Assembly (NCBI GenBank): GCA_009746045.1 | Contig: RPFO01000448.1 | Location: 1,474,547-1,538,546, forward strand | Direction of reading: 5' to 3' | Length of the DNA stretch: 64,000 nucleotides | Source: Mesostigma viride | Lineage: Eukaryota > Streptophyta > Mesostigmatophyceae > Mesostigmatales > Mesostigmataceae | In this document: one piece after another, positions 34,519 through 61,120 of the stretch | Layout: every line of letters starts with the position of its first letter | Numbering within the stretch: position 1 is the stretch's first letter | Translations under genes and position numbers: made by a program | The notes under the pieces: generated by a model | Database searches by the model: none | What the model was told of the DNA's origin: nothing | The model's input: the letters and a program-made list of their open reading frames with translations, nothing else

Positions 34519-34608
34519 GTGACCGTGGTTTCGCGCCGTCATTCACGAATGCAATGCACGTCTCACCAGGCTTGATTACCGTCTCCGGCAGGTCCACCGC
34601 ACCACCTG
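34519..34608 (+). pseudogene. Penelope-like RT, left part, interrupted by CACTA element 2
   Basis: After an in-frame TGA the sequence reads PWFRAVIHECNARLTRLDYR and on to ...HRTT at the insertion point. Skipping the CACTA element and one TG, the frame continues at 59640 as WLNTTDKALLDHF. This is the linker just before the RT core in Penelope-like proteins. The element appears 5' truncated close to 34519. Confidence 0.6.
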
Positions 34609-34629
34609 CACTAGGAACTCGTTGGTGGT

Positions 34630-34965
34630 AAAAAATACCACTTTTACCACTTTTTACCCTTTTTTACCACTTTTTACCACTTTTTACCACCAAAAAGCAG
34701 TAAAAAGCAGTAAAAAGCAGTAAAAAGCAGTAAAAAGCAGTAAAAAGCAGTAAAAAGCAGTAAAAAGCAGTAAAAAATACCACCTTTTACCACTTTTACC
34801 ACCTCCGTTAGGTGGTAAAAGTGGTAAAAGGTGGAAAATGGTGGTAAAAAGCAGTAAAAAGCAGTAAAAAGCAGTAAAAAGCAGTAAAAGTGGTAAAAAG
34901 TGATAAAAAGTGGCTGAAGTGGTAAAAAGAACACCACGACGAGCACAAAAGTGGTAAAAAACACA
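34630..34965. repeat. Left subterminal repeats of CACTA element 2
   Basis: Arrays of TTTTTACCAC and TAAAAAGCAG (10-bp units), with inverted orders around 34800. The right end (59289-59610) carries the same TTTTTACCAC units in the opposite layout. Confidence 0.92.
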
Positions 34966-35118
34966 AGGGCTGAACCGACAACAAGTCAGTTTAGGCCCAA
35001 ACAATGAATGATGCATCTTTATTCAACATAATACGGCATGATTACACTTGTGAGCAGCATCTAATGAGGCCGCAAAATGCTTGCACAGCAGCATCAATCA
35101 GAATCATCCTTGGCATCA

Positions 35119-38100
35119 CTATACCGTTAAAATCACTGTCATTCCCCTCGTTGCTAGGGTTTGTTCTCTATAGTCCCTGACCGTGCGCGCGCGTGCACTT
35201 GTGCGCAACGGGGGCATGGGCTCCTTCCCCTTGTGTGATGCAGGCGCCAAAGCCTCAGATTTCTTCTTTCTCTTGCGGGGCGGGGCTGCGCGTGAGGGTT
35301 CTGCCGCCGTGGTTGCCGGCGCGGGCTGCCGTTCAGCGGGCGGCTTCTTTTTCTTGCGAGGCGGGGCTGCGCGTGAAGGTCCTGCCGCCGTGGTTGCCGG
35401 CGCGGGCTGCCGTTCATCGGGCGGCTTCTTTTTCTTGCGCGGCGGGGCTGCGCGTGAAGGTCGTGCCGCCGTGCTTGATGGCGCGGGCGACGGATCAGCG
35501 GGCGGCGGTTCAGCGGGCGGCCGTTCAGCGGGCGGCTCAGGTGGGAAGTACCTGATGTCTTCCTGCCACCTTGTCGCCGTGCTTTGGAAAAACTCGTTCT
35601 CCAAAGCCCACCCGGTTGCCAGGTGACGGGGCAGCTTGCAGTGAATGACCGAAAGCTGGGGCTGATGCCGTGGGTCCAGCACAAACCCAACAGAGCTAAC
35701 AGATGTTGGCCACACTAGCTTTGCCGTGCGTGGTGCCTCGGCGCTGCGGACCAACACCAAGCGTTGATCCCGAATGTAAGCCACCTCCGATGCATCGAAA
35801 AGCTCTACTCTCAGCACAAGCTGTTTAGTCCACTGCCCCACCGGCTGCACCAGCTTTGCCACGAGAATGTGGGTCAGGTAGCCGTACTGAGTGCTGCTTC
35901 CCTCCTTATGGTAGGCTACACCACAGTTTGCAGTCCGCCATGCTTGCTTCCTGTCAGCTTCTTTTGTCCGGTAATTGAAACCGTACAAGTGCACCCTATC
36001 ATACTCCTCAGCCTTGAGCTGCACGCCGGCTGCTGCAGCCTGGACAAGCTCCGGGACCAGCGGCTGCTGGTTGAGTCCGATCCAGTCTTTGAGCCATGAG
36101 AGGTCGCTGCACAAGGGCCGCCTGCATGCACATCGTATACAAAGCAAGATAGCAATGCAAGAAAAAAAAAATTAGAATAACGGCAGTAGTCCTTGGAAAT
36201 CAGATGAAGTTCCCTATACTGAAAGAAAATCAGCTCAAAGAATAGCAACTTACAATAATAGGACAGCGGCGTCTTACCAGTAGGCCTCATCGCCGTTGAC
36301 TTCGGGATCTTTGTACTCCGCATTGGGCAGCGCATACTCCAACAAAATCGCGCCCACTTCATCAGATTCCGCGGCGGTGAAAGTGTAGAAATTCTTGCGG
36401 CTGCGCCCCCCCAACTCGACCTTCTTGGACGGGTCTGCGTGGATGACGTCCCAGATGTAGTAGCGGTCTTTTGGCTGAAAGAAAAAAAAGAAAGCAAACA
36501 AGACATTGCAAGCAGCGCACACAAATATGCACAGAAATTAGCTGCATGCAGCACAAGACCGTGCCACAAGGAGCGCGTACATAACACTAAATCTGCACAC
36601 AAATCCATTAAAAAAAAAAATCGGTCACTAGCGTGTACTTACCATCCCGGTTTTCACCATGTGATAGGCCAGATGGGTCAGCGCCTCAGACTTGCGATAT
36701 GCTCCGTCCATGGAGCACTCCACATTGACGTTGGACAGCTTAGCTTTCGTGATGGCCCCCATCATCCGCTCGCCCGACGCCATGGTGCGGGTGTCACATC
36801 GACCCAACAAGGGGATTTGCTGGGCCAGGTGGGCCATCATATGAACAGATTTTGCCATCTCAGACGCTGGCGCTATACGCTCCATCGCCACAGCAGCAAG
36901 CAAAAACATCTCGCCGCAGTCATCCAACTGCTGCTGAGTCGCCGGGCCGCTAGAAAACACAAAGTCCCAGGCCGCTGATTGAAGGAGAAATGCTTGCCGT
37001 GCATCGTCATCTAACCGCCCACGCAAGATGGTCGGGAGTTGCTTGCAAAAGTAGAGGATCTTGTCACGCGTCTTGGATTTTTCAGTACTCTTCGCATCGC
37101 AGAGCAAGCCACTGATCCGGCCGGTGAAGTAGTCGGGTAGGCTATGCGCCATGATGTCATCGAGACCTGCGCATTACAACCACACGCAAAAAAATAACAC
37201 ATAGTAGTAACACGACAGCCGAAAAAAATAGTCAGTCCTATGTAAATCACACAGACCATAGTCAGTCCTACATATTAAATTTCCAAATTACGGGAAAAAT
37301 AAAAACCCAATGTCACACTTACGCTTGATATCAGCCTTTTCCTCAGCCGTCAGCTGGAACCCGGGGCGCGGTGCTGGCGCCCTCTTCTTCTTGCGGCCTT
37401 TCTTCGGTGGACTTTGGTGGTCTCCCTCCGGTGGTGGGTCTCCCTCCGGTGGAGGGTCTTCATCAGGCCGCCACAGCTCCGGGTTCAGACCGAGGACCTT
37501 CAGCCTGCCACGAAGTGACCCGGTCGCCATAGCCTTCCCTGCATGGAGTACAAACAGAAAAAAAAAAACAAAACAATATTACATCAGCTTTCCATGTGAA
37601 CAGATAGGCCACAGTCAATGTATGCATGCAACAATCACAATGAAATGATACAATTAAATGTTTAGCAATTACCGCTTGTGCAATGAATGACCCGCTTGAA
37701 GTTGTTGGGACACAGATGGAACTCGTCAATAAAATGACGGATCTTCAGGTGAACCCAGTACGGTAACTTGAGAAACGGCTCGGGCTGCTTTTTTAGCGTA
37801 GCACAGTACTTCAGGTAGCCAGCATGGTCCATCTCCTGAACAACAGGAGCGTGAGCCGGCCGGCGGGGGTCACCCTCGGGAAACATGCGGTCATTGCCAA
37901 GGAGAACGATACGGCCATTTGAGATAAAAACCCCACGCCACTCATCACCATGTAGGACGCATTGATAGTACCCTGCATCTGGAATGTTCAGGGACTTGGA
38001 GTATGCCGGGTAGTCGTGAATTATGCCAGCAAGAATGGACCTCACAAATGTCGTAGTGTAAACACCCGCCACGTCCAGCGTCACATCACAAATGTAATAC

Positions 38101-39155
38101 CCCTTCCACAGTACCAGGAAGTCCTCAGCGATCAAGTCCAAAAAAATGGTCATGTTCTTGGGTGCCTTCCCCTTCATGGCGCCCACAAGAAGCACCATAG
38201 GGCAAAACCGCCCATTCACCATCACCCACTCGGGCAAGTTGACACAGGAAACAAACGCGGGCCAGCTGCTGTGGGTATCCATGAAAGACCTTGGACATAC
38301 TCCGTCAAAATTCAGAAGGAAGATGGTGTTCCGCGGCTGGCTGCGAAAGTCCCAGTTGTTCTTTATGTGCTGGATGGCACGGCTGTCTGCACGAACAGGT
38401 CCATGCACAAGAAACACCAGACGTAAAAAGAAAGGTATCCATCAGAGCAGTACAAACAAAAGATAAGCGCAAGAGGAAAAATCTCGAACTTGATACTTTG
38501 GCACACATTGCATAACAGAAGGCGTAGAAACAAGTGCAAACCTGCCTTTCAAGCCGTCCACAACGCGCGTGGATGAGTCTGGCTCCCTGTTTTCATGTTT
38601 CGCAGCGTACTGAAGGGCTTCCGCCATTTCCGGGACTCGGAACCAGGCCCTAATCCGATCCATCAGGGGGAAGTGCCTAACCTGGCGATGCGCTTTCCGC
38701 GAGTTGACGATGTCACCGTTTCTGTCAGTGTACGTCTCGTAGCGCGACAGCTTGCAAAGAGGGCAGCTCTTAGTAATCTTGTCCTTGTACAAGTAACCCT
38801 CGCATGGGCAGGCATCGTACACACGGTACCCCAAGCCCAAGCCTTTGATCACTTTCCGTGCCTTCCAGATACTGTCGGGCAGAGTGTTGCCCGCGGGGAG
38901 AACGTTTCCCAACAGCTTGAAGAGCTCATCAGCAAAGCTCTGAGGGCATGAGTTTTCCCCCATTAGCGTCAGCAATTGCAATGTAAACATCAAGGCCTTG
39001 CTCTCAGATCCCGGGTACAATGGCGTATCGTCCTTGACTCTGGCCACTGCTTCGTCATAATTTCTAGCAAACTGGCGTGCTGCATCCTCTCCACTGGCCG
39101 ACCCGTCGTCAGGGTCCTCGGCCATGAATTCATCGACTGTCTGTCCTTGACGCAT
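35119..39155 (-). CDS. TNP2-like (En/Spm, CACTA) transposase, six exons, intact
   Basis: Exons on the minus strand: 39155-38542, 38382-37673, 37538-37323, 37166-36643, 36474-36278 and 36121-35119. Every intron is GT-AG, all phases match, and the sum is 3264 nt (1087 aa plus stop). An in-frame TAA lies directly before the ATG. Exon 1 has the family text LPAGNTLPDSIWKARKVIKG and a CxC/CPLC cysteine cluster near residues 117-135. Exon 2 has the core LNFDGVCPR (Asp about 231), then CDVTLDVAGV and IHDYPAYSKSL. Exon 4 matches the C-terminal helical part (LPTILRGRL, VHMMAHLAQQIP). Exon 6 has the DUF4216-like part (YGFNYRTKEADRK, NCGVAYHKEG, YGYLTHIL), then repeats of RAAPPRKKKKPP. It should cut and rejoin element ends in the nucleus. 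No stop or frameshift breaks it. Confidence 0.88.
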
Positions 39156-40375: not shown

Positions 40376-40465
40376 CACTATACTTTTCGTCCGAGGGTGG
40401 TAAAAAGCATCCGAGGCGTAAATTACGAGGTCTTATCTTACTACCTAGATCCGAGGCGTGAGATC

Positions 40466-40477
40466 CAACGCCGTAAT
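40466..40477. repeat. LINE target-site duplication, left copy
   Basis: CAACGCCGTAAT, identical to 46191-46202. Confidence 0.85.
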
Positions 40478-40587
40478 TTCCGGGTAAATGGGTATTTTTA
40501 TTAACCAATAGGAATATCATTAGGTGAAGAGGTACCACGTATCGACCAGCTGGTTACCCTCTGAGGGTAGTGTGATAGGTGAAAGGT

Positions 40588-43500
40588 TTAGAAAGGAGCA
40601 TTGTGTGACCAGGGGAGCCAAGTGACGCGCGTAAGGTCACCGTGAGGAATGCAGGTAAACACCCTGTTGCGTCCCAGGAGAGCATGGAAGAGCTCCAAGG
40701 GGCTGGGCTTGTCATTGTTGGGCCCGGGGTCCCACACCTTGTATTGTTCTTGCGCCAAGAGCCAAGCGCGACGCATTGCTGAGTTCCAGAGAAAGATAAA
40801 CCGCCTCACCACGGCGGCTTTGGTGTATTCGTGCCGCACTTTGAAAACCGTCTCGTTCCGGATAGTCCAGATCGCGTATAGCATATTAGTTCGGAGCCAT
40901 ACCCAGGCTAGTTGACTGTTGGAGAGCTCCTCCCCGGGGGTCCCCGCCATACCGAATATGATACAACGCACGGATAGCGTTAGTGTGGAATGTGGTAGCG
41001 CGGTCCATGCGGACCATACGTTAAACAACCATTGCCACACCCCGCTCACTTGGCAGTAGAGAAAGCGGTGCTCAATTGTTTCCGAAGGGAAGGTGCACAG
41101 GCATGTCGCATCGTGGTGAAACCGGCTGCTGAGGGCCGCGTTTACCCCAATGGCTCTGTGCAGTAAAAGATGTTGAATGTCGGTCGCTCTGCGGTCCACC
41201 AAAGGGTGATCGACCGCCACGGTGATAAGTTTAATCCAACTGTACCCAGGCCATTGAAAGCCCCATCGTGGGCGGCCAGGGTGGAGCTTATGGTTCTCGT
41301 GCAATAAAATGTCATAACCCCATTCTGCCGTGTACTCGTAAAGACATTTGCTAATCCTAGACATCCCCTTGGTCAAGGTCCAGCCAAACTCCAGGGGTCC
41401 AATGGTAAAGTATCCAATCTCGTATTGCCTACGTGTAACCAAGTGATGGCCTCCGCCGGGGTCGTGGGGTCCGGCTGGAACATGCAGGACCTTGATACTA
41501 ACCACGGGACCATCCGGATACGGTGACATTGGTGGGCTGGAAGACAGACACATAATGTCGCCAACTGATTGAGGCAACCATTGTGGCCTGGAAGGGTGTC
41601 GGCCACTTGGACTTGAATTCCGGCCGGAGGCAACACTCCCCGGACCAGACCTTTGCATGTGGATGTGATCCCGTCCGGGTAAAAACTGATCCAATCACCC
41701 GGTTGGAGGGCCTTGCGTGGGGCCATCATCAGAGCATGCCATGTAGCTGGGATGGCCTGGATGAGGGTGTTCCAAGCGTGTAGCGATGGCATGTTTTGCA
41801 CCCAAGCATTAACTTCAGTGTATGCCCGTAACCGATATCTGTCCCCCTGCCACGCGTAGAGATCGAGCACTCTCAGAACAGGGGGTGATGCGCACAGGAA
41901 GCCAGCATAAGGGTTGTGCCCATGTAACGTGCCCAAGGGCTTGCGCGCATTGTCCACGATCAAATCATTGAAATAAAGAATCTGTCGTGCAACCTCCTCA
42001 CGAGTGGTGGGAAAAACGAGGCGCCCAGGTTTGAGCTTGTGATAACCTAACCATAGGCGCGACCAGTACCAGGGGAGCCCCTTGTATGATATCAGTGTGC
42101 AGCCAAGTACTCCAGCGTCAAGGTGCCATGATGTGCCATTAGCATGGGTGTAAATAGCGGAGAGAGACTCTTTTGCCAACAAGCAGCCAGGGTGCGTGTT
42201 CACTTCCATGTACACGCTGATCACTTGTTTAGCATACATCGACCACAAGCGCCATTGTATGTTGTGTAGCCCTAGGCCACCGTGCAACCATGACATAAAG
42301 GACATATCCCGGCTGATCCAACCATGTACCGTGTGAGATATCAAACCTTTTTGTTTCCAAACAAATTGCTGCCGATGCGTTGGATAAGCTGTATGGTATG
42401 ATCGTTGGGAGGGTGTGCCAGACAGTAGTATAAAACCTTGGAGAACAAGAGTTGGTTGACGATCAGTGCTTTTCCTCGTAAGCTCATCCGCTGGACGCCA
42501 CCCCACCGCCCTGCCGTGAGGAGCACTCCTGCAAGTTTGCCCACGTGGTTGGTTTCGTCATATAAAAACGCACGATGTTCAGCCAAACGTCCCTCTGGCG
42601 TGCAGCCAATGGGGCAATTGTGCAAAAGATGGTGTTCACCTGGTTTGACCCATGTCATGGCCAGGTGAGAGGGGTTTATCCGAGATGGGTTGGGTTTGCC
42701 GATGTGCAGTCCCGTGGACTTTTGCACATTACAACGTTGTTGTGAGGCCACAGAGTACGTGTTGATATTTTCCAAGACAGCATTCACTTCCTGTAGAGAG
42801 ATGCAAACATTGGTGGTGTCATCCACATATGCTATCTGTACAATACCTTTGGCACTGCCTGCAAGCGGGAAGCCCTGCAGACGAGGGTCGTGCTGGTGGA
42901 GCCAAAACAATCCTGCGTGTGCCAGTAGGAACAAGATGGGGGACATACAATCTCCTTGGGGGAGGGATCTTGAGCTGTGGCCAAGTGCAGATTTATGACC
43001 GTTGATAAGGATGTACCAGGTTAGCGATTTGATCATTCCCATGATGACCGTTAGGATGCGTGGGCCAAACCCTAAGCCGATCAATATGTGTCGGAGGTAT
43101 GCCCAGCACATGCGGTCAAACGCTTTTTCAAAGTCCCAGAAGAGGATAAAGCCAGCAATGTCGTCGCGCCATGCCTTCTCTACTATGTCCATTATGAGGG
43201 TGATGCTATCGTTGATATGGAGGTTAGCACGGAAGCCTACTTGCTCCGAGCCTATAAGGCAGTCGAGAACAGAGTAGAGCCTTTGCTGAATTATCTTGCT
43301 AATGATTTTGTACGCAACCGTAAGGAGGCGTATTGGCCGGTAATTTTTCCACTGTGTTTTGTCACCCTTTTTGAACAATAAAATGAGGGCTGTTTCGGCC
43401 CATTGACCCGTAATTTGTCCATGTTGCCAGATTTCTAGTATGCATTGATAGAAATCTACGTGTAAAAGGGACCAAAAAGTTTTCCAAAACTCGATGGGAA

Positions 43501-45004
43501 GCCCATCCACCCCTGGGGCACTACCGGTCCGGATGTTTTGCATGGCATTAGTAGCCTCCTCCATGGAGGGGGTTTGGTCTAGTTGGTGTTGTTGCGCAAG
43601 TGTGAGGCGGCGTGGGATAGCTTGTAAAATTTTTGCTATGGCCGCGTCGGCTTCGGGGTTGGGTTCATTTTGGAACAGCGAGGTGTAGAAACGATGTCCA
43701 CTTTCTAGGATGGGGGTTGTGGCCGTGTGTGTGCCTTGTTCATCCTGGATTTCTGAAATGATTGAGTTGGATTTTAGTGGTGGAATAAGTGCGAAAAAAT
43801 CTTTCGTCATGCGTTCGCCTACCTGATGCCACCACAGATTTTCAGAGTCTAAAGCTAGGGCGTGTCTTTCAAAACGGAGTTTGTCGAGTTCAGTTTGTGA
43901 ACTTTGAAGTCGAGCTTGTTCGTAGTGGTTTAGGTGGGGTTTCAGCTGTAGCTTGTTGACTATGCGTTGGTGAATTCGGTATGCGCGGCCTTTCTCCCGA
44001 CGTACGTTTAGGGAGTAGGTATGTGAATATTCTAGCATTTTGGCTAGGCCTTCCTGCATCCACGTGCAGCAGTCAGTGTAGCTATCCTTGTGAGTTCGCC
44101 AATTGCTCCAACGTTGCATGATCTCAAAATAAAACTGATCGTCTTGTAGAAGGATTTTATTGATGCGAGGGATGCCTGGGCCCCGTGGGGCCTGGGTGTG
44201 GTGGGCTAGCGTGACAATGCATGGGTAATGGTCTGAGAAGGCTGTGGAGCGTTCTACGCTGGCGTGGCAGACTAAATCGGCCCATTTGGGCGTGATATAT
44301 ATTTTATCCAAGCGACGGGTTGTGCGAACGCCCAGACGAGTGGCCAGCCAAGTGTGCTCCTGATCCCGTGACCGAATGACATCCTGCAAATTCAGGTCTA
44401 GAATGTGTTGGTAAAAGGAGGCTGTACGGTGGGCAGGGTGTTCGTTTAGATCAATGTTAAAATCCCCCATAAGTACTATTTCTTGGCCGTTGGAGATGAG
44501 ATCAGAAACCATTGCAAATATATGCTGGTAGAAAAGGTTTTGTTCAGCCGGCATATCTAGGGTCGGCGCATAGATGGTAATGAGGTAGCCCTGGCTTCCC
44601 GCCCATGTGATAGATTGTCGTGTCCATCTGCCCTGCCATCTAGCCGGGGCTGTGTCTACTTGTAATGTCCATGGCAAGTATGTCATGGTTGGGTTAGGTG
44701 GTTTGCGGTATTGTATGAGTGCAGTTCCCCCTTGGGTACCCCGAGCCCATCCCCATTGGCATAGTGTTCTAGGTGCAAGTGCTCGGACCGCCCGGAGGGC
44801 GGTACGTTCTGCATCTATCTGAATTTTGTGTTCTTGCAGTCCAAGCCAGATCTCGTGAGAGGGACCAACATATTGATGTAGGAGGCTATCCAATTCTACT
44901 GTAAGTTCCCGGATGCGAGTCATGGTGCGGCCCTGTCCCACTGTGCGGACTCCGTATGTGTTAAGCCCCCTGACATTCCACGAGACTAGCGTTAGTTGGC
45001 TCAT
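40588..45004 (-). pseudogene. LINE ORF2: endonuclease, reverse transcriptase, Zn-binding tail
   Basis: The first frame (45004-42341, 887 codons) has an APE-type endonuclease: SWNVRGLN at about 8-15, LQEHK at 56, LMGDFNIDL at about 178-186, SDHYPC at 257. The reverse transcriptase follows: RPIRLL near 556, WDFEKAFDR about 623-631, SLPQGDCMSP about 680-689, and YVDD at 726-729 in place of the common YADD. The frame then shifts near 42350 into 42506-41373, and again near 41440-41480 into 41694-40588. The last part has the zf-RVT pattern CLCTFPSETIEHRFLYC. If repaired, the protein would be about 1470 aa. Both shifts go in the same direction, as expected for single-base losses; real decay and assembly error both fit. 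Confidence 0.88.
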
Positions 45005-45042
45005 AGGATTATGTCGTGGGAAGGCAGAGGTCTTACCTGGTT

Positions 45043-46188
45043 TCAGGGGTCGCGGTCGCGGCGCTTGCCGGTAGCCGGTGTCGCCGACGCTTCCATGTCG
45101 GAGAGGCCCAGATCGGACGGGAGGTTGTGGTGCGGGGTGGTGGTGGCCAGCGCATCGGAGTTGTCCTGTGTCGGTTCTGCGTCGGCCTCTGCCGGGGAGG
45201 CATCGGCGGCCGCGGGAGGAGGGGTGCGCCGGGGGACCTCGATGAATTTGCCTGGGTGGATGCCTGATACCTCAAAAGCTTGCTCCCTCGCCACCTTATT
45301 CCAACGGCAGCCGGTGGTGGGCAGCTGTGTCGGCGGGTCGCCCTGCCCGTGTGTCGTCGTGCAGGGGATAATGACACTGATGTTGTGCCGCTCCTTGTCT
45401 GAGGTGCGTGGTGCCGTGCGCATGAACAGGGCATCCTGCGGGCTGTCAACCGTCACGACGCCGTGCATGCCCATTGCTTGCAGTTGGGCGTGGGCTGCCG
45501 CGAAAAAGTCCAATGGCTGGGCTGGGCCGTTCCTCGGTCGCGCTCCCATGGGAACCCACTTGACCATGAAGGGTTCCTGAGCTTGATTGAGCGGGCACAG
45601 CATGACCGTGTCGTCCCCAGGGTAGGCGATGAGAAGGATCAGCTCGAGGCCGATGTTGGCCTTGGCAGGGATCCCCAGTGCCGTACGTGCCGCGTACGGG
45701 AGGAGGGCGGCGTCGAGCCACTGGGTGATAAGCTGGGATAGGCCCGTGCCGTCAGGCGTGCGGTCAGCCCCCGGTGGCTGCCCGCCGTTGTCGTCAGCGG
45801 CGAGATGGGCCCACTTGCCCTTGCCCTTGCGGGCGTGGCTAGAGCGCTCCTTGCTGGCCTTGGCCTTAACAATCTTGGCTGGGCACTCGTACGTGTCATG
45901 CTCGCGGGATTCTAGGCAGGTCTGGCAGATGATGTCCTCGTAGTTGATTTGAGTAGTGATGCGGTTGCTGCCAGCAATACCGTGTCTGCCGGGCATGTCC
46001 ACGGTGAGGATGTCCGGGATGCACCTGGGGTTGTTACCGGAGTAGCCCCCGGGAACTCCCATGATAAGGTCGGTGCCCTTGTTGTTCACCCCTAGCTCCG
46101 GGTTGAAGTGCGGGGTGAAGCCCATGGTGGCGGTTTGAACACGGCGGATGAGCGTTGTGCTGTCTGTCGTCAATAGAGGTGTAATCAT
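45043..46188 (-). CDS. LINE ORF1: gag-like RNA-binding protein with zinc-knuckle-like motif
   Basis: A 381-codon frame directly upstream of ORF2. It has a CxxC-x5-H-x4-C knuckle (ICQTCLESREHDTYEC), a basic Lys-rich stretch (KAKASKERSSHARKGKGK) and a Pro/Ala-rich acidic tail. Such ORF1 proteins coat LINE RNA. It is unlike the ORF1 fragments at 8100-10318, so at least two LINE families are present. The start may not be the original one because the 5' junction is only 2 nt upstream. Confidence 0.75.
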   Translation of the reverse strand: MITPLLTTDSTTLIRRVQTATMGFTPHFNPELGVNNKGTDLIMGVPGGYSGNNPRCIPDILTVDMPGRHGIAGSNRITTQINYEDIICQTCLESREHDTYECPAKIVKAKASKERSSHARKGKGKWAHLAADDNGGQPPGADRTPDGTGLSQLITQWLDAALLPYAARTALGIPAKANIGLELILLIAYPGDDTVMLCPLNQAQEPFMVKWVPMGARPRNGPAQPLDFFAAAHAQLQAMGMHGVVTVDSPQDALFMRTAPRTSDKERHNISVIIPCTTTHGQGDPPTQLPTTGCRWNKVAREQAFEVSGIHPGKFIEVPRRTPPPAAADASPAEADAEPTQDNSDALATTTPHHNLPSDLGLSDMEASATPATGKRRDRDP

Positions 46189-46190
46189 TA

Positions 46191-46202
46191 CAACGCCGTA
46201 AT
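46191..46202. repeat. LINE target-site duplication, right copy
   Basis: CAACGCCGTAAT, identical to 40466-40477. CACTA element 3 subterminal sequence resumes after it. Confidence 0.85.
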
Positions 46203-46600
46203 CATTACTACGTAGGATGATTGGTAGTAATTTTACTAGCCGTAAGTAAGAGTAACGTTACGACTGCACATCTTTGGTAGTACATTACCGACAGAGTAAA
46301 TTACCGCGACGGGTCTTGGTTGGTAATCTACCACCTGTAGATTAGGTGCCAGTGATCCGATGCTGTAAGATACGTTTCAGTAAGCTACTTCGGGGATCTT
46401 TGCCTGTACACGGCCAGATGGATAATTATATTGTAATGGAGAAGTGGGAGAACGTGCGTGTCTATTAGCAAATGCAGCGAAATATAAAAATGTAGTTATC
46501 AGCCTTTTTCGCCTATTCAGCAGTTGTCGTTGTCGGCCGTTGTCATTAAGCGGCTATAGATTATGTGTGCTGGGGCCGGTGAAAAGACGCTAGCAAAGTT
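46203..46600. repeat. Left subterminal region of CACTA element 3, resumed after the LINE
   Basis: Scattered TAATTTTACTA, GTAAATTACC and GGTAATCTACC motifs match the style of the right subterminal array. Together with 40432-40465 it forms the left subterminal zone. Confidence 0.55.
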
Positions 46601-46607
46601 CGTCTGA

Positions 46608-47718: not shown

Positions 47719-47779
47719 AGCCAAGGAATGGGTGTTGGTTCCAGTCAGGTGCCTCGCCCGGAGGAAGCTTTTCTGCTGT

Positions 47780-47926: not shown

Positions 47927-48153
47927 GTACGCTTGTAGGGTGTATGCTGTGTTGTTCCGCTCGCTAATGGACATGTGCCCCTGTAACCTCTTCCAGGCTA
48001 GTATCTGCTATCCACCTCTTCAGGCTTGAAAAGTAAATTGCTGTACGGTTCACAATTGGCATGGCTTGACATGCACGCGTCCTTGACTGTGGTCTGCATG
48101 GGTTTGGGGTTTAGCGGTTTACATCAGACTCTGCTGTGTGTCTGCTTAATCAG

Positions 48154-48215
48154 CCGACGTGTCACATGGGGACAGCAACGGCGCTGGGATGCAGCCCGGT
48201 GTGAATGCGAGTAAG
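48154..48215 (+). other. Possible exon of the CACTA element 3 gene
   Basis: Between CTTAATCAG and AAG|GTACGC, a frame reads VSHGDSNGAGMQPGVNASK. Its frame is compatible with the exon starting at 48504 (phase 0 junction). No domain. Confidence 0.22.
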
Positions 48216-48503
48216 GTACGCGCTGTCATGCATGGCGGATGGGGCGTGGAAGCCACGACCCACGTTTTTGTGTGTGCACGGGGGGCTAGGGGGCAAGTCG
48301 TTGTGTTGCTGCCATCCATATGGCCATGGATATGCGGGAAGCTTTCCCTGTACCCATACTTAATGATGCATGGACTGGTTGTGACAGCCAAGGGTTTAGC
48401 TGTCGTGGGTTTGCTGAGTGATCATGGCAGTCTGCTAGGCTGGTGCTAGAACAGCAATAGCGCGGTTACTGCTATGTCTTGCCCGTGCTAACTGATGCTG
48501 CAG

Positions 48504-48632
48504 CCATGCGTGGAGCGCGAATCGTCCCGAGAGGAGAAGGAGGAGGCGGGGCCGGTGCACCCATGGGCAGGGCCGGAGAAGAAGGACGCGGAGCACCCAG
48601 TGTGGGAGAAGGAGAAGGCGGGGAAGCACTGA
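48504..48632 (+). other. Possible terminal exon, highly charged
   Basis: After ATGCTGCAG the frame reads PCVERESSREEKEEAGPVHP and ends GKH-TGA. The Glu/Lys-rich composition and frame agreement with the preceding candidate exon suggest real coding sequence. Confidence 0.3.
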
Positions 48633-48914
48633 AGCTCCACCCCATGTCAGGCCTCTAGTATAGGTGCCAGTTAACTAAACCCATGCACGTGCAGGTTGTA
48701 GCTCAGAATGTATTTAAAATCATATGCCCCTTTTCAGGTATATGTGTAACAGTGACTCCCAACGGATATATGTTCCTAATTTTTTAAATTCTTACTGAAT
48801 AATTGTTGTCTTTATGAACCCATGAAGAGCAAAGCCCGGTGGGGAGTACATGTAACGCATTACCACGAGAAGGGGTCCCCACACCGCATTTCTTCGCTCT
48901 CTGTTCCTATGCAG

Positions 48915-49034
48915 AACAAGAAGAGGTGGAAGACCAATGTCCCGGCTCACACGCCAGCCCATGTGGGTAAGCCCCCTCCCCCAAAGCGGAAGGGGCGCTT
49001 TGGGGAGAAGTGTAGTGAGGATTTTGTAGACTAG
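48915..49034 (+). other. Possible alternative terminal exon with nuclear-localisation-like patch
   Basis: After CCTATGCAG the frame gives NKKRWKTNVPAHTP, then GKPPPPKRKGRFGEK and a stop at TAG. The KPPPPKRKGR patch resembles a nuclear localisation signal. Its link to the upstream exons is not proven. Confidence 0.28.
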
Positions 49035-49245
49035 ACCTGGCAATAAACAAGCATTGATGGGATGGACCCAGCGATACATAATGGGCGTGCATGCGTAAAA
49101 AATATACACTATGCATGGCCCAATGGGCATGCATTCAAATAATTACAAATGAAGGCCGCCATGAGAGCACTGAAGCTAAACCAGACCGGGCCACAATTAA
49201 CCCTCCAGCACCAAAGTTCCACTGCATCATGTAAGACAAGCCTGA

Positions 49246-50392
49246 CATCCATCCATCCATCCATCCATCCATCCATCCATCCATCCATCCATCCATCCAT
49301 CCATCCATCCATCCATCCATCCATCCATCCATCCATCCATCCATCCATCCATCCATCCATCCATCCATCCATCCATCCATCCATCCATCCATCCATCCAT
49401 CCATCCATCCATCCATCCATCCATCCATCCATCCATCCATCCATCCATCCATCCATCCATCCATCCATCCATCCATCCATCCATCCATCCATCCATCCAT
49501 CCATCCATCCATCCATCCATCCATCCATCCATCCATCCATCCATCCATCCATCCATCCATCCATCCATCCATCCATCCATCCATCCATCCATCCATCCAT
49601 CCATCCATCCATCCATCCATCCATCCATCCATCCATCCATCCATCCATCCATCCATCCATCCATCCATCCATCCATCCATCCATCCATCCATCCATCCAT
49701 CCATCCATCCATCCATCCATCCATCCATCCATCCATCCATCCATCCATCCATCCATCCATCCATCCATCCATCCATCCATCCATCCATCCATCCATCCAT
49801 CCATCCATCCATCCATCCATCCATCCATCCATCCATCCATCCATCCATCCATCCATCCATCCATCCATCCATCCATCCATCCATCCATCCATCCATCCAT
49901 CCATCCATCCATCCATCCATCCATCCATCCATCCATCCATCCATCCATCCATCCATCCATCCATCCATCCATCCATCCATCCATCCATCCATCCATCCAT
50001 CCATCCATCCATCCATCCATCCATCCATCCATCCATCCATCCATCCATCCATCCATCCATCCATCCATCCATCCATCCATCCATCCATCCATCCATCCAT
50101 CCATCCATCCATCCATCCATCCATCCATCCATCCATCCATCCATCCATCCATCCATCCATCCATCCATCCATCCATCCATCCATCCATCCATCCATCCAT
50201 CCATCCATCCATCCATCCATCCATCCATCCATCCATCCATCCATCCATCCATCCATCCATCCATCCATCCATCCATCCATCCATCCATCCATCCATCCAT
50301 CCATCCATCCATCCATCCATCCATCCATCCATCCATCCATCCATCCATCCATCCATCCATCCATCCATCCATCCATCCATCCATCCATCCAT
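49246..50392. repeat. (CATC)n microsatellite, about 1.15 kb
   Basis: About 287 uninterrupted CATC units. Open frames of 385-472 codons on both strands (repeats of SIHP or WMDG) are artefacts. Confidence 0.99.
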
Positions 50393-51900
50393 TGATCGGG
50401 GTATAGTCCTAGTACAGCCATGCTACGTCCTGGCTATGATGAGATTACTTGCCCACGCTCCTAGTGTTATGCCATGCTCACATGGGTCTTATTGCACCCA
50501 CAGATTGCCGGATCGTTGGCGTGTCCCTTTAGCTAGCGTTCCCGAATGCAGCTGTGGCATGCCTTAGGCATGAAGGAGACTGGGGGTCTCTGCCCTTTCT
50601 CCTGTTGTCCACACACAGGGATTAAAAGCACTTCGGTGCTCCGTGACTCCCCAACAGGAGCACGTGTTTAATTAATTAATTAAATTAATTAATTAATCGG
50701 GGTTAGCTAATGCTCCTTGACTCCCTAATGGGGGCATGAGTTTAATAAATGAATTAAGTAGTTAGTTAATTAATCAGGTTGATTCAGATGAGGTCTGTGC
50801 TGGTTCCTTGTGGACTGGCCAGCCAGGGAGATATCTTCTTACATGGTCAGGCCCTTGCCGACCATGTAAGAACCTGTTAGGCGACGCAGTGGCCAACATT
50901 GGACATACCGCCATATGTTTGTCTCCGCGGTATGATTTTAGCTGACATGCAGAGCACAGACACTGTTGGCGTCATCCGCTCAACCCCTCTTATTCAGACA
51001 TGGGACCTCGGATGTGTAGGATTAGTAGCGTTGCCCAGGCGGACATTGTCAAAGACTACGACCCCCCAGTTGTGGGTCCTAGGAAATTTAACAAGCATGA
51101 TTGTCTCCTTGTTGATAGGCATTAATTAATCCTTGATGATAGGCATTGCTTGCGTGCAAGATTAGCTCGAGGCCCATATTTTAGACTACTAGCTGAGCTG
51201 TGGACATACATGTTGTTATTGACGTCTTGACGGATATTGACGTCTTGGGGTGACTTCCACTATATCTTCTTTGGGGAATTCAGAGATCCCGGTCCCCCAA
51301 CATGGACATGAGACTAATTAAAATCAATTAATCAATGTCATGAATAGAGCGCGTTCATGACGTTCAGTCATGAACAGAGTCCTAACCTTAAACACATAAG
51401 AAAACAATTATGGCGGGCCATGTGACCAATGTAAGAAGCTTAGCCCCCAAACATATTGTTGTCTCACGTAATGAATCACTTGCTGATCAACAAATCGATG
51501 ATTATCTCATAGGCACAATGTACCTCTGACCATCATTGCTGGCCCATGCATGCATGCACCAATGGCAGCCTACATGACACATACATCGCTTATTTGCCAT
51601 GTAAAAAATGCGACAAAGTGTCCATATAGGTACTCATAGATTAGCACAAATTCCTTAGCACGATGTGGACAACTTTACTTAACGGTGAAAGCCTGTCTCG
51701 CCCTTATTGCCTTGAGGGTTCCCGGCGATAGGTCCTGTCTGTTGGTCGACATTTTTCTTTTGCAGCTGGCCATCGTCGGTAGGTATGAATGATCTCGATG
51801 CTAGCAATTACGATGATGATACCCGAGGTAGTCTATACCTAGGATCGAGAGCTTCTTCTTGTATGGCAATGCCGGCAGTTAACTATTACTCCGAATAAAG
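50393..51900. other. Interior of CACTA element 3, no gene recognised
   Basis: Contains TTAATTAA-rich blocks with GACTCCCCAACAGGAGCACG and GACTCCCTAATGGGGGCATG (50636-50760), and a perfect 13-bp hairpin at 50836-50872 (TTCTTACATGGTC/GACCATGTAAGAA). Confidence 0.5.
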
Positions 51901-51904
51901 AGTT

Positions 51905-52580
51905 AAGAGGTTGGCCCTCGGCAGTCGGCATGGCGATCACGGAGCGATGACGGGGCGATGACGGGGCGATGACGGGGCGTTGACGCGCGTGATGAATAGG
52001 ATCTGTTTGACAGGCGGCGGCTATTGGTAATATAGATTGTTGATTAAGAGAAGAGTTTAGATGTTGGCCCGTGGGCGATGACGGTGACGGCGTCACCGTC
52101 ATCGCCCTCGACGGGCGTCATGAATACGACCTTTTTGATATGCGGCGGCTATTGGTAATATAGGTCGTTGACTACTACTCCGAATACAAATGTAAAGAGG
52201 TTGGCCCTCGGCTGGCTCGGCATGGCGATCACGGGGCGATGACGGGGCGATGACGGGGCGTTGACGCGCGTGATGAATAGGATCTGTTTGATAGGCGGCG
52301 GCTATTGGTAATATAGATTGTTGATTAAGAGAAGAGTTTAGATGTTGGCCCGTCGAGGGCGATGACGGTGACGGTCGTCACCGTCATCGCCCTCGACGGG
52401 CGTGATGATAAGCCCATGTTTGATATGCGGCAGCTATTGGTAGTATAGGTCGTTGACTATCACTCCGAATAAAGAGTTAACAGGTTAAGGCCCTCGGCCG
52501 GGCGATGACGGGGCGATGACGGGGCGTTGACGCTCGTGATGAATAGGACCTGTTTGATAGGCGGCGGCTATTGCTAATAT
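51905..52580. repeat. ~285-bp tandem repeat, about 2.3 copies, with long hairpins
   Basis: Units start near 51911, 52199 and 52488 with GGTTGGCCCTCGGC-like text and runs of GATGACGGGGC. Each full unit contains a perfect inverted repeat: 52073-52107 (16-bp arms) and 52348-52401 (25-bp arms, 4-nt loop). Confidence 0.85.
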
Positions 52581-52599
52581 ATAGGTCGGATATTTGTGT

Positions 52600-53050
52600 A
52601 CCACCCCCCTCCTTCCCGCGGCAGGTACGCAGCGACCCGCTGTTGCATGTCCTGGCTGCAATTGTGTATCACTTGTACGGTATTTGTGTATCACTTGTAG
52701 CGTATTTGTGTATCACTTGTCCTCCTTCCCACGGCAGGTACGCAGCGACCCGCTGTTGTCCTGGCTGCAATTGTGTATCACTTGTACGGTATTTGTGTAT
52801 CACTTGTAGCGTATTTGTGTATCACTTGTCCTCCTTCCCACGGCAGGTACGCAGCGACCCGCTGTTGTCCTGCCTGCAATTGTGTATCACTTGTACGGTA
52901 TTTGTGTATCACTTGTAGCGTATTTGTGTATCACTTGTCCTCCTTCCCACGGCAGGTACGCAGCGACCCGCTGTTATACTGGCGGTATTTGTGTATCACT
53001 TGTAGCGTATTTGTGTATCACTTGTACGGTATTTGTGTACCACCACCCTC
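52600..53050. repeat. ~110-bp tandem repeat, four copies, with 20-bp sub-units
   Basis: Units begin CCTCCTTCCC(A/G)CGGCAGG at about 52609, 52721, 52830 and 52939. Inside each, GTATTTGTGTATCACTTGTA repeats two or three times. Confidence 0.9.
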
Positions 53051-54046
53051 CATGGCCCATGCAGCCCGGCCCGGCATCGTGCCGTCGCCGACCCGACAAC
53101 GTTTTCTCGAACAACACGAATTTGAATTTTAGGGACTGGAGCGGCTGGCACGCTAGCGGCACGACCAACGGAACAGAGAACCGAGAAACTGTGGCCGCCA
53201 GGAGGATAAAGGTTTCAAGGCGCATGCGTTTGAGGCTAGCCAGAACCGAATGCGAGGTTTTACTTTATCAAACCGATGTATATCAATGTGGCCAGAATTC
53301 TTTTCCAGTTGCGGGGTCGTGTGTCGCCAATTTGTTGTTGGGCCGGGCACTTTAATCGTGATTGCAAGAAGTCAGTTCACGACGCCGTTAGCGTGGCATT
53401 TATGTACAGCAATTCATCGTTCGGCTTCTTTATCCTATCGGCAACTCCTCACGACGTGTGAGCGTGAGTCGGTTGTCGTGTGAATGGACACTTTCTGGGA
53501 AAGTAAGTCACTAGAGTGCCAATTTCACCGATCGCAAAACATTTACCCAGTTTGGGCAGATAGACCTGGCTAAATACGAGGGCGAGCGGAAGTAATTGTT
53601 GATGCATAGCCATCTGCTTCCTGCGCTTTGTAATTGTAATGAGTTGTTCGCAAATTGGCGTCTCTAGCGGTTACTCCTCTGTGCACAGCTGGCGACCAAG
53701 AAGACTTCATTGGCAGCCGGACTGCGGATGCGCGTCGTTGGAATATTAGCAACGTTAACATGTTTGCTGCGTTTTTTGTGAAGCTTGTCTAGCCGACTGC
53801 ATTTGGGAGACTTGGCAAGGTTGCCTCCAATCGTTGAAGTCACAACCTGGGTGTCAATTCACGTTTACTAGCCACGGTCATAGTAACATTCTAATGGCAT
53901 TTGTCCCAGTTTCAACATGGGTTTTCACTCTGATCTGATGGAGTGAAGGGCCTAGCTCCGTGGTTTTGTGTCATTGTAGCAGTTTAGTCGCCTGCTAACG
54001 TAGTGAATCTTCCATCCCACCTCTCCCACCCCCACCCGCACTTCTC
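53051..54046. other. Interior of CACTA element 3, no gene recognised
   Basis: Only short open frames. I see nothing I can name. Confidence 0.4.
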
Positions 54047-54185
<139 letters not shown>

Positions 54186-54214
54186 TCCCACCCCCGCTCT
54201 CTTGTCCCTCCCGC

Positions 54215-56345
54215 ACCCCTCCTCTCTCTTTCCCTTTTCCTTGGCTGTTGAGAAGGACTGGGGTGAAAACTCCAGACCGTTGGTGGCTGCCTTCAAGCAG
54301 GAAGTTTCAAGGATCAACAAGTTTTTGTGAGCTGTCTGATATGGTCACTGCTGCGACAAAGGTGAGTTATCTTGTTTTTCATGTAATTTTTTTGCTGTAG
54401 CTAGGTAAGCCGGCCATTTTGTACTCCCCTTTCTTTTGCTCTCACGATTTATTCTTGTTGTGGTTTATATGGTCCCGTTAAGTGGCATGCATTATCATTA
54501 TCCACATTAGTGTGAGAAACCATCCGCAGTGTTGTAGCTTGCATCTATAACAACAGTTTTTGCTGCCGCCGCCACTGCTATTACCAACATTAAGTCATTC
54601 TTGCTTTCTAAGCACTCTTTTTCCTCTTAGGCTGTTGGTTGGGATACCAGCCACCCTTGCACGCATAAATTCAAGCACCGGGTGCATGTGAAAACACAAC
54701 CAAGGCAAGAATGTCCCCCTCTCGCAATATCCCACCCACGCAACGCACCCAATGCAGCAAGAATGGGACCACCTTGTTGCCATGAGCTCTAGCACCGTTG
54801 CCACCCCTAGCTTTCTACTGTTCCCGTCCATCCTTATTTACACTGGCTGCTTTGCTTGCATTTCTGGCTCAGTGCCAGTTTGCACTTGCTAGCTTGCTAA
54901 GACAATAATGCAGCTTGCAAACGGCAAGGGCAAGCACCCGGGTAAGAGCAAAGGCAACCGCACGAGCAAAGGAAAGGGAAACTGGAAGAGCAAGCACAAG
55001 GCCAAGGAAAGGACAAAGGCACTTGTGCTTGCCAAAAGGGCAGGCTCAAGGGAAATGACAAGGGCAAGGGCAGGGGCAGGCACAAGGGAAGCGGATAAGG
55101 GCAAGGGCAGGCGCAAGGGAAAGAGATTAGGACAAGTCAAGCACGAGGGAACGGACAAGGGCAAGGGCAGGCACAAGGGAAAAGATGAAGACAAGGGCAG
55201 GCACTAGGGAAAGGATGAGGGCAACGGCAAACACTGGGGATCAAAGGATAGGGGCAAGGGCAGATGCTAGGGTAACAGTTAGGGCAAAGGCAGGCACAAG
55301 AGAAGAATAAGGGGCCGTGAAGTATAAGTGGAAATGCGGGTGGCGACATGGGGTTCGATCGGGCCTGCTGATGCAAATGCAGATTTCAACTGCAGTGACA
55401 AACACAAGCGTAGACATAGGCAACGACAAATTCCTTGCATGCGTGCCTTGCTCTTCACCGGCTGGCTCGTTTGCTAGTTGTCTAACAGTTTCTACCGATA
55501 AACATCACTTGCCATTGTAAGGTCTGCCTTGCTGCCGTGCTAGTGGGTAGCTGGGTGATCGTGCTTGTTCCTTGTCAAGGGAGGGATGCATGTGGAGTAG
55601 GTGGGTGGGTGTGCTTGTTCCTTGCCAAGGAAGGGATGCACAAAGGTTAGATAGGTGCACGTGCTTGTTTCTTGTCAAGGGAGGGACGCACAAAGGGTAG
55701 GTGGGGGCACATGGTTGTGCCTCGTCAAGGGCGGGATGCACGAAGGGTAGGTGGGGGCATGTGGTTGGTCCTTGTCTTTTCACCGCCCAAGCGATGGCGA
55801 TGTAGCATGCATTATACATTTATTCGTGCATTAAAAATCACTTTCCTTACAAGCGGCCTTAGCCGACTCCATCTGCCGTTGCCATTTCTCCGTATTGCAT
55901 TGTCCGGACACGGTTTTTGTGTCGCAGGTCTTCCCCCGTAAAGGCACAAGCTGCCTGCGCGCGGAATTATGTGCAGACACCTCGGTTTCCAACACGACGG
56001 CTTCCCGCACATATCGAGCTCTGGATGTACAACATCTTCCCCCGGCGCACTTGCTCCCGGATGGAGCTTCTGTGCGGTGCCGACATCCCCGGAGCTGTCC
56101 TAAGCACCGCATGGAAACAGTATTTCAAGCCACGAAGAGAAGCCACGAATTTGATATTGACTTGATATTGTCGTCAGAAGACTTGATATGCTATTTTCTG
56201 TGAAGGCGTTGGATTTTTGTGCATGACATGTAATCCTGCATTTAATAATGAAATTTTTTATGAAATAGGAACTCGTCTTGCATGAGCCTTGCTGCAAATG
56301 CCATTCATTTTTTTCCCCCGGGTAAATGGGTGTTAGGGGTTAGGT
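54215..56345. repeat. Repeat B, inverted relative of repeat A, with a ~760-bp insert
   Basis: The reverse complement matches 28490-29880 over long stretches, such as GCAGCCACCAACGGT(G/C)TGGAGT and AAAATCCAACGCCCTCACAG. Between about 54630 and 55385 it has extra sequence not in repeat A, much of it AAGGGCAAGGGCAGGCACA-type repeats (about 54905-55320). Confidence 0.85.
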
Positions 56346-56479
56346 TGACCGAAATGATGTGAAATCAAAGTGAAATTCTGATAAGTGACATGCGTACTGC
56401 AATTCAGAACGACATAGCGACATGATTGTAGTACCGGTAGTGTACGCGAGAAGCATACGACGTCTTAACCTACGGGACC

Positions 56480-56770
56480 GAGTACCGGGATCGTAAATTA
56501 CCAACTCGTAAATTACTACCTCGCAAATTACTACCTCGTACCTTACTACCTCGTAAATTACTACCTCGTACATTACTACCTCGTACATTACTACCTCGTA
56601 CATTACTACCTCGTAAATTACTACCTCGTAAATTACTACCTCGTAAATTACTACCTCGTAAATTACGACGTCGGATCTTACCTCGGATCTAACTCGTAGC
56701 TTACGAGAAAGATCCGACCTCCTATGCAAACGGTAAGAGTAAAAGCGGAGTAAATTACCACCTCGTAATT
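56480..56770. repeat. Right subterminal repeats of CACTA element 3
   Basis: About a dozen copies of ACCTCGTAAATTACT in tandem, then TTACCTCGGATC variants, directly inside the 56-bp terminal repeat. Confidence 0.95.
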
Positions 56771-56815
56771 TACGCCTCGGATGCTTTTTACCACCCTCGG
56801 ACGAAAAGTATAGTG

Positions 56816-58718: not shown

Positions 58719-59288
58719 TGGAATGTTTTTTCTGAAGCACGTTTTAGCTATGTAGTGATGTGGTGTTGTCACACCCAATTGCCATGTGCGTATATTTTTG
58801 TTACTCATGTATGTATCACTCTCATGCTAGGTCATGCATCATACCCACAGGCATAACCCATTTCACCATGCATAGGATGTTTTGCTGGGCAACAACTATC
58901 TGCCGTGCCTGACTGCCCCCCCCCCCCCTGCCTTGCTGCCCTTGTGTCCTCTTCAATGGTGGTGCTCTGTGTGCCTGCAGGCCTCCAGAGCATGAGTGCT
59001 GGCAACTGTGTGGCTTTGTTCAGGCAAAGAAGCATCATTGATCATGATGACACCTGAAGAAGAAGTAAATTAATTGGCTGGGCTTGATGCGGCCTGTGTT
59101 ATTTCACAATGGTGTAAACGTATCGATGAGACGCCCAATGTGGGGCTAAATCCTCATTGTAAATCAAGAGAGACAACTGTTAATGGGATGTATTATTATT
59201 TGTAATAAAGAAACCATTTGGAATGATGGCCTGTTAAGCTGTTCTTAACAGTGCTTGTGTTGTAATGCTGGCAAATCTGCATTTTCCC
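58719..59288. other. 3' region of the CACTA element 2 plus-strand gene
   Basis: No gene recognised. AATAAAG is at about 59203. A run of 11 C is at 58917-58927. Confidence 0.4.
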
Positions 59289-59610
59289 CTTTTTTATCAC
59301 TGTCATTTTTACCACTTTGTGGTATTTTTTTACCACCCTCACTTTTACCACTTTGTGGCGTGTTTTTACCACCCTCGCTTTTACCACTTGGTGGTATTTT
59401 TTACCACTTTGGTGGTAAAAGGGGTGGTAAAAGGTGGTAAAATGATTTTACCACCTGCTTTTCTCCTAGCGTTTTCCACCGTTTTACCACTTTTTACCAC
59501 TTTTTACCACTTTTTACCACTTTTTACCACTTTTTACCACTTTTTACCACTTTTTACCACTTTTTACCACTTTTTACCACTTTTTACCACCCACTTTTAC
59601 CACTTTTACC
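59289..59610. repeat. Right subterminal repeats of CACTA element 2
   Basis: At least ten tandem TTTTTACCAC units (59482-59590) plus GTGGTATTTTTTACCAC variants. Confidence 0.95.
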
Positions 59611-59637
59611 ACTTTTACCACCAACGAGTTCCTAGTG

Positions 59638-61120
59638 TGGCTCAACACCACAGATAAAGCACTTCTTGACCACTTCACTGAAGCAGGACTTTATCATCAC
59701 GTGTGTTGACAAGAGTGCCAACAACTTTGCTTTTATATGCAAGAAGCACTACCTTGCTACTTTGCAACACGAGTTGGCGTCCAGCCCTACCTTTGTTCAG
59801 CGTGCACTGTCCACCGCCAGTATCACTGCTGCTCATCGGGCTTTTCTGCACACCCAAAAAATTGTTGCTCGGGCATTCCTTAAGCGGCAGCGACGCGCCA
59901 CCACCACTACGTTCCCGTATCTGTATCTCACTCTTAAGCTGCACAAAACTCCTGTTGCTTTGCTCACCGTTGCTGCATCGCATTCAGCCCCACTGATGCC
60001 TCTCTCGAAACTCATCTGCGATGCTTTGAATGCTCTTCTCCCCGAAGCCAATGCATTATGGGTGGAGGTGCTGTCGAATGCCGGGTATGAATGCGCTGGT
60101 AGTTGGATCGTCATAGACTCATGCAGCCCAAGTACGCCTACGCCTTGCCGCCCTTAGCCGTTCTAAGACAGCAGCAGAGAAGCGTATACCTATGCCCATA
60201 GCCACCTATGATTTCACCACTCTATATTAAAAAAATTAAATTAAATTATAACATGTGCCTCCGTGGGGAGGTCACTCTAAGTATACCACACTAGATTTGC
60301 ACGATTTGAAAGCTCGTTTAGATAGCCTCCTTACTCGTCTGTATGCACGTAGGCCTCACGGGCGCAACCACCTGCACGTGCGTGTTTCTCAGACCAAGCC
60401 CACGGCCGGCAACGTGGCTCTCAGGGATTGCGGCAGGTGCTATCGTGCGGGATGCTTATAATTATATTATCACGAAGGCTGACCTTGTTCATTGGATCTC
60501 TTATCTTGTTGATAACACCTTCATTTGTTTTGCGGGCAATGTATACCAACAAGCTATCGGCATCCCTATGGGCACTAACTGTGCCGGGCTCCTTGCAAAC
60601 CTCTATCTATACACTTATGAGCTTGCATTCATGGAGAATCTCATTGCCTCAAACGATGATGTTCTCATCAGGCGTCAGTTTTATCCACACATGTCGATAC
60701 ATTGATGATCGATGTCATTCCTTTCGACAACCCTGATTTCGCAACCCATTTGTACATCACCGCTGGTCTGCCTGGCATCTACCCGCAAGCGTCCCTCACA
60801 TTAAAGCTCACGTCGGAGGATACTCATTGCAATTACCTCGATCTTAACATTACCCGTAACAAGAAGGGCTGGCGTACGGCTGTCTATGATAAGCGCAAGG
60901 ATCCTAAATACCAGCAAATTCCTTTTATTCGTTACCCCGATATTCAGTCTCCTTTCCCACACAGCAAAATATGGTGTTGTTCTTTCTCAGTTACATCGTT
61001 TTTCCCGTCTTTGTTCTTATTGTGTCGATTTCATCAAGACTCTTGTTGAGCTCTTGCATCGTTTATTGGTCAAAGACTACACCGCCCGCATTGGTAGATT
61101 TAATTATAATTATAAATTAT
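59638..61120 (+). pseudogene. Penelope-like reverse transcriptase, right part, frameshifted
   Basis: Successive frames spell the RT of Penelope-like elements: DFIITCVDKSANNFAFICKK, YLYLTLKLHKTPVALL, then VYQQAIGIPMGTNCAGLLAN and LYLYTYELAFMENLI. A shifted YIDDRCHSF at about 60701 is the catalytic box. It continues with DLNITRNKKGWRTAVYDKRK and a C-terminal FNYNYKLF-stop at 61125. Frame changes near 59695, 60160-60430 (an AT-rich interruption around 60225-60260), 60700 and 60970 show it is dead. CACTA element 2 is inserted at its 5' side. Confidence 0.75.

Follow-up and report, generated by a model that had tools for sequence, protein, structure and literature searches.

How was a 51.4-kb block of interleaved transposons assembled in the genome of Mesostigma viride, and where do the short insertions scattered through its repeats come from? 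M. viride is an early-branching streptophyte alga, and we analyzed 64,000 nucleotides of one of its contigs, positions 1,474,547-1,538,546 of RPFO01000448.1, referred to here as the window. A first-pass annotation of this sequence had proposed four layers at 34519-61120, each interrupting the one below: a Penelope-like element, CACTA 2, CACTA 3, and a LINE. Genome searches for empty sites and copies were run against an M. viride assembly of 439,911,974 bases in 2,243 contigs. The published assembly has 441,847,188 bp and 66% repeats, and Penelope-like elements are a listed repeat class in a figure legend of the genome paper (PMC6947507, available in part).

The nest occupies 12207-63624, and its base is about 4.8 kb of one Penelope-like copy. 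It contains eleven insertions at three levels. Y1, X, CACTA 2, a 45-bp insert, and an element with CACCG ends lie directly in the Penelope-like copy; CACTA 1 lies in Y1; Y2, Z, and a MITE lie in X; CACTA 3 lies in CACTA 2; and the LINE, at the third level, lies in CACTA 3. The features are listed below in order of position, with a point in place of the strand where none is assigned.

12207-12716, +, Penelope-like piece 1, the first piece of the base copy
12723-21763,., hAT-like Y1, CAGAGTGCAATC...GATTGCACTCTG, target duplication CCCGTCCT, interrupted by CACTA 1
13790-21216,., CACTA 1 in Y1, target duplication TC
about 21759/21764-23813/23814, +, Penelope-like piece 2, holding the GIY-YIG coding part (22287-22904)
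23814-34521,., element X, CACAACACC...GGTGTTGTG, target duplication AC, in the Penelope-like element
25664-27278,., hAT-like Y2 in X, target duplication CTGCCAAT
28033-33363,., Z in X, CACTA-like left end, rearranged right end
33810-34115,., MITE in X, CCGTAGTGGCTCTTA inverted ends, target duplication TA
34522-34608, +, Penelope-like piece 3, between X and CACTA 2
34609-59637,., CACTA 2, 25-bp perfect TIR, target duplication TG
40376-56815,., CACTA 3 in CACTA 2, 56-bp perfect TIR, target duplication GA
40478-46190, -, LINE in CACTA 3, RT frame 42344-45271, 12-bp target duplication
about 59638/59640-60227, +, Penelope-like piece 4, following CACTA 2
60228-60272,., 45-bp insertion, TTAAATTAAATTATAA stretch, about 7-10 bp duplicated (CACTCTA)
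60273-61079, +, Penelope-like piece 5, between the 45-bp insertion and the CACCG element
61080-62901,., CACCG element, CACTA-like, CACCG...CGGTG, CACCGCCCGCATTGGTAG...CTACCAATGCGGGCGGTG, target duplication TA
62902-63624, +, Penelope-like piece 6, the 3' end

The core of the first-pass annotation was correct, and its extent was too small. The four layers that it named, and their order, were borne out by exact junctions and by empty sites. The target duplications that it gave are present at the CACTA 2 (TG), CACTA 3 (GA), and LINE (12 bp) junctions, the last being CAACGCCGTAAT at 40466-40477 and 46191-46202. Both frames said to be restored by removing an insertion, RTT-WLNTTDKALL across CACTA 2 and VVDPTT-GELTAQ across CACTA 3, read at the joins as written. 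The check proposed beforehand was a search for empty sites with joined flanks, and 40 of 40 scored copies crossed each of the three joins. Hits to the CACTA 3/CACTA 2 join covered query bases 1-243 or 1-242, eight of them at 100% (best 40 of 85 candidates); those to the CACTA 2/Penelope-like join covered bases 44-291 and began at window 34522, directly after X (best 40 of 494); and those to the LINE/CACTA 3 join covered all 218 bases of the query, with full scores for 15 (best 40 of 621). Many natural uninterrupted copies therefore exist for all three joins; since only the best 40 candidates were scored each time, interrupted copies are under-represented, and 40 of 40 is not an unbiased fraction.

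Boundaries had been claimed to the exact base, which held for the three inner layers and failed for the outermost one. Position 34519 falls in the last bases of X, and this left edge is wrong because 34521 is the end of X, where many other copies of X also end; the 251 bases at the proposed edge matched 39 other places in the genome, all ending at window 34521-34525. Position 61120, the proposed right edge, lies inside the CACCG element, which starts at 61080. Four layers do exist, in a larger nest with five direct insertions and with the GIY-YIG half of the base element to the left of the proposed edge.

Ten genomic places, taken from the 40 scored hits, were fetched and compared with the window pieces of the Penelope-like element. 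All six pieces were colinear with the ten copies. None of the ten contained X, CACTA 2, the CACCG element, or the 45-bp insert, and Y1 was missing from all seven copies that reach its site (L051-L053 end short of it). Some fetched copies (L050, L052, and L053) carry insertions of their own; L050 contains a short element with CACTA...TAGTG ends, flanked left and right by TG. At the left end of the window copy, 12207-12309 (103 bp) repeats the copy's 3' end (63523-63624) at 88%, as in tandem or pLTR arrangements, and tandem copies occur elsewhere: three hits were spaced 4552 bp apart on one contig, and L045 matches itself. Outside the nest, 7212-9196 holds adjacent duplicated blocks of 85-87% identity, and these turn up again close to several of the fetched repeat copies.

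The inserted elements could be classified to different degrees. CACTA 2 has CACTA inverted ends and a TNP2-type transposase (Transposase_21; 37665-38441, minus strand), which places it in CACTA/EnSpm. It lacks a 3-bp target duplication such as is found in rice: 2 bp are duplicated in the window and in five unambiguous copies. Elsewhere in the genome, seven of seven CACTA 2 copies with both ends visible had matching 2-bp flanks (two of these lie in microsatellites, which extend the match), and 3 of 10 copies did not show both ends. Inside CACTA 3, a (CATC)n array runs without error for about 287 units (49246-50392). The LINE was recognized by its reverse transcriptase (RVT_1, E 1e-22), by endonuclease models that scored below the Pfam cut-off only, and by its 12-bp target duplication; no poly(A) or simple tail was found at its 3' end near 40478. 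At its 5' end (46181-46208), GTAATCATTAC flanks the right-hand duplication on both sides. The LINE frame (42344-45271) is matched at 99% and 75% by public M. viride gene models with an RT domain (P0001 and P0002), so transposon frames sit among the annotated genes of this alga; the 99% match (jgi Mesvir1) covers 74% of the query.

Y1 and Y2 each have an 8-bp target duplication and CAG...CTG ends, as hAT elements do. The empty site of CACTA 1 is present within the window itself, in Y2, which at 1.6 kb has no frame of 200 aa. A clean copy of X elsewhere in the genome measures 3461 bp, and the window copy carries three insertions; equal 2-bp flanks were seen in two of three other copies examined and not in the third. 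The 18-bp inverted ends of the CACCG element are CACCGCCCGCATTGGTAG. X and the CACCG element may be classed as CACTA-like by their CAC...GTG ends and 2-bp duplications only, and neither has a frame of 200 aa outside nested parts. The insertion of Z is less certain because its right end is rearranged, and X lacks 29 bp at that point. The right end of Z also holds fragments of the Penelope-like 3' end (32968-33092 and 33310-33361), which face opposite ways and are separated by an array. Z (28425-29981) and CACTA 3 (54126-56443) share about 1.6-2.3 kb of interior, inverted and 86-89% identical, which begins some 370-390 bp in from the element ends; the ends and subterminal arrays differ, a pattern that an exchange of termini between CACTA families could possibly have produced. 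The 45-bp insertion appears retroposon-like.

The base element itself encodes one uninterrupted frame of 1020 aa in two intact natural copies. Residues 774-974, the RT part, match the Penelope-like protein P0032 (BLASTP E 2e-9), and residues 72-191 match the GIY-YIG domain that lies at the C terminus of P0032 (BLASTP E 6e-7; PF01541 in P0032, E 3e-5). A Pfam search of the intact M. viride protein gave no domain at E ≤ 1; RVT_1 was absent from it and was found below the cut-off in P0031 (E 0.025). A protein search with the RT region returned 188 proteins at E ≤ 1, 120 of them listed; the nearest among those listed was 81-82% identical, and the next 38%, in the RT region. By iterated profile, GIY-YIG was detected in 62 of 121 proteins (P0031-P0151), before the RT in 61, several of which are truncated at the N terminus, and after it in P0032. 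In a tree of 40 rows picked from the 120, the M. viride protein belonged to a group of 15 rows (support 100/97) that have no zinc-finger-like cysteines; nine other rows without them fell elsewhere. The relation of the RT, the predicted nuclease before it, and the tandem or terminal repeat (pLTR) identify the base element, as far as sequence can, as a permuted Penelope-like type with an N-terminal GIY-YIG, which we take to be Naiad/Chlamys. Craig et al. (2021) reportedly described Penelope-like elements of this name with a permuted N-terminal GIY-YIG. The hammerhead ribozyme is common in the group and does not define it; Rfam gave no hammerhead match in the window (gathering threshold) or in L047:1600-6700 (E up to 5). 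P0134, a permuted relative, is labeled as a Terriglobales bacterium MAG, probably through eukaryotic contamination. The family provides a many-copy example from this early-branching alga.

Divergence drops from the outer layers inward, the pattern that a nest must show; how far a copy is from its relatives gives only a rough idea of when it inserted. The Penelope-like window copy differs from the copies compared by 1.64-3.21% substitutions (8 of 10 between 1.78 and 2.17), the window copy of X by 1.00-1.30% (three copies), and that of CACTA 2 by 0.27-1.15% (15 copies; nearest, 0.27%); Y1 and Y2 are 0.25% apart. Five intact Penelope-like copies are 0.05-0.51% apart.

Compared with the intact copy L047, the window copy of the Penelope-like element has 31 short insertions (95 bp) and one deletion (2 bp). 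We compared three families, each including the window copy: the Penelope-like element (16 copies, reference L047), X (7 copies, reference the clean copy), and part of CACTA 2 (15 copies, reference L022). Indels of up to 10 bp present in one copy only were counted, and those by runs of at least five equal bases were dropped. Insertions and deletions, told apart by a single reference copy in each family, numbered 78 and 18 in the Penelope-like element, 18 and 4 in X, and 14 and 15 in CACTA 2, whose copies thus show no insertion bias. Two of the 14 CACTA 2 insertions were later dropped because they duplicated a single tandem-repeat event. In the window copies, private insertions and substitutions numbered 30 and 94 (Penelope-like), 8 and 35 (X), and 5 and 9 (CACTA 2).

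Insertion size peaked at 4 bp, the length of 42 of the 108 private insertions that remained. A 2-bp duplication was kept in 32 of these 42, and 23 had the palindromic form NN-rc(NN)-NN (Penelope-like, 17 of 29; X, 5 of 8; CACTA 2, 1 of 5); 10 lacked the duplication, and 19 were not palindromic. When the same 4-mers were dealt among the sites 2000 times, the means were 6.5 for the duplication and 3.4 for the palindrome (maxima, 15 and 10), and random 4-mers give 16.3% and 1.06%, respectively. A stricter script, run at four alignment settings, found 38-40 4-bp insertions, 30-31 with the duplication and 21-22 palindromic. Other sizes behaved differently: 1-bp insertions showed no excess (5 of 11 against 45% expected) and 2-bp insertions little (5 of 17 against 16%), a 3-nt palindrome was seen in none of seven 5-bp insertions, and 13 of 18 insertions of 5-9 bp kept the 2-bp duplication. 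Many of the putative scars are concentrated in few copies (window copy 12, L052 6, and L030 5, of 29). Among the copies compared, no resident element was found at a scar site, and no scar could be tied to a particular element. L052 has a resident element with AGTTATTATAAATAG inverted ends (5282-6323) a few bases from the site of a window-copy scar.

These observations are best explained together by a nest built stepwise and by repeated entry and exit of transposons that left scars, with CACTA-like transposases as the likely source; we give this joint reading a probability of roughly 0.75. For the nest, the junctions, target duplications, empty sites, and inward-falling divergence show the stepwise order. 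The Penelope-like retrotransposon with its N-terminal GIY-YIG nuclease arrived first. It was entered directly by the hAT-like Y1, with an 8-bp duplication, by three CACTA-like elements with 2-bp duplications (X, CACTA 2, and the CACCG element), and by the 45-bp retroposon-like piece. These were hit in turn, Y1 by CACTA 1, X by Y2, Z, and the MITE, and CACTA 2 by CACTA 3, with the LINE entering CACTA 3 last. Many other DNA transposons would have entered the same repeats and then left; both 2-bp target copies would have stayed behind each time, often with two complementary nucleotides added, which would give NN-rc(NN)-NN. The 4-bp insertions do look like excision scars of CACTA-like transposons with 2-bp duplications, and the CACTA-like elements in the window make just such duplications (TG, GA, TC, AC, and TA).

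Opening of a hairpin at the flank, as with RAG and hAT, or strand switching during repair would each yield such palindromes, the hairpin if it were opened off-center. The palindromic form may reflect a flank hairpin as an intermediate. The fuller claim, that the scars are P nucleotides of CACTA-like excision through flank hairpins and that such excisions are a leading source of small insertions in M. viride repeats, is one we hold only tentatively; "leading source" refers to the window Penelope-like copy, in which 30 short insertions are private and substitutions number 94.

Slippage, or end-joining errors at ordinary breaks, might have made the 4-bp insertions instead. Short insertions have many origins, and 19 of 42 lack the palindrome; slippage or overhang fill-in should, however, give tandem duplications, and before duplicates were dropped exact 4-bp tandem duplications made up 4 of 44 insertions against 25 of 44 for NN-rc(NN)-NN. 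The size peak at 4 bp also argues against this origin, which we regard as unlikely. A different group with 2-bp duplications, such as mariner, is more doubtful still as the source. Mariner-type elements leave scars such as TA-CTG-TA or TA-CAG-TA, one of each was found among the 5-bp insertions, and a TA-flanked MITE is present. Mariner duplicates TA, however (PMC4423477, available text), whereas the duplicated pair in the 25 palindromic events counted before dropping varied (CA 4, TC 4, TT 3, TG 2, AG 2, AA 2, GT 2, and six further pairs once each) and was never TA; the CACTA-like duplications here vary in the same way.

That the nest is an assembly chimera made of repeats is very improbable: the region is highly repetitive and was seen in assembled sequence rather than reads, but misjoins would not be expected to give matching target duplications at every clean junction or uninterrupted copies through every join. 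Hardly credible is a nest of only four layers at 34519-61120 with the flanking Penelope-like pieces as separate insertions, since, many as the genomic Penelope-like copies are (494 candidates), the six window pieces are colinear and run on without a break in natural copies, and the joins carry target duplications.

We conclude that the nest is a further example of a known, ordinary kind. Nests are common; in this one an empty site of its own exists for most levels, which allows the order, the target duplications, and the relative ages to be read off directly. Its interesting part is the regular scars together with the 2-bp duplications, a variant worth testing. If the scars are CACTA excision products, copies of repeat families record how a transposase cuts, and sequence can be used to ask whether CACTA enzymes pass through flank hairpins. 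CACTA enzymes are said to have motifs in common with Transib and RAG1 (PMC12730594, in the part available).

Several known systems resemble parts of this locus. Like Naiad/Chlamys-type Penelope-like elements, the base element combines an RT with an N-terminal GIY-YIG and occurs in tandem; it differs in that Pfam detects no domain in the M. viride copy at E ≤ 1 and in an RT 38% identical to the next-nearest listed protein. Chlamys is also named in the available portion of PMC12477816. The CACTA...TAGTG ends, the subterminal repeats, and the TNP2-type transposase of CACTA 2 are those of CACTA/EnSpm, whereas target duplications are 2 bp here and 3 bp in rice CACTA elements (PMC4423477, sections at hand); 2-bp duplications are published for the related fungal Plavaka group (PMC12730594, same portion). 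Giant EnSpm and KDZ elements of Ectocarpus are likewise large DNA transposons with unrelated insertions, but those insertions are generally fixed among copies, as far as the accessible text goes (PMC12477816), whereas the best 40 of 85 CACTA 2 hits all lack CACTA 3. Excision footprints in rice likewise combine the target duplication with small changes at the donor site; perfect excisions were 8 of 94 over all superfamilies, and the others were mostly deletions or filler (PMC4423477, as above). In M. viride, unlike rice, a regular palindromic form of 2+2 bases dominates the 4-bp class.
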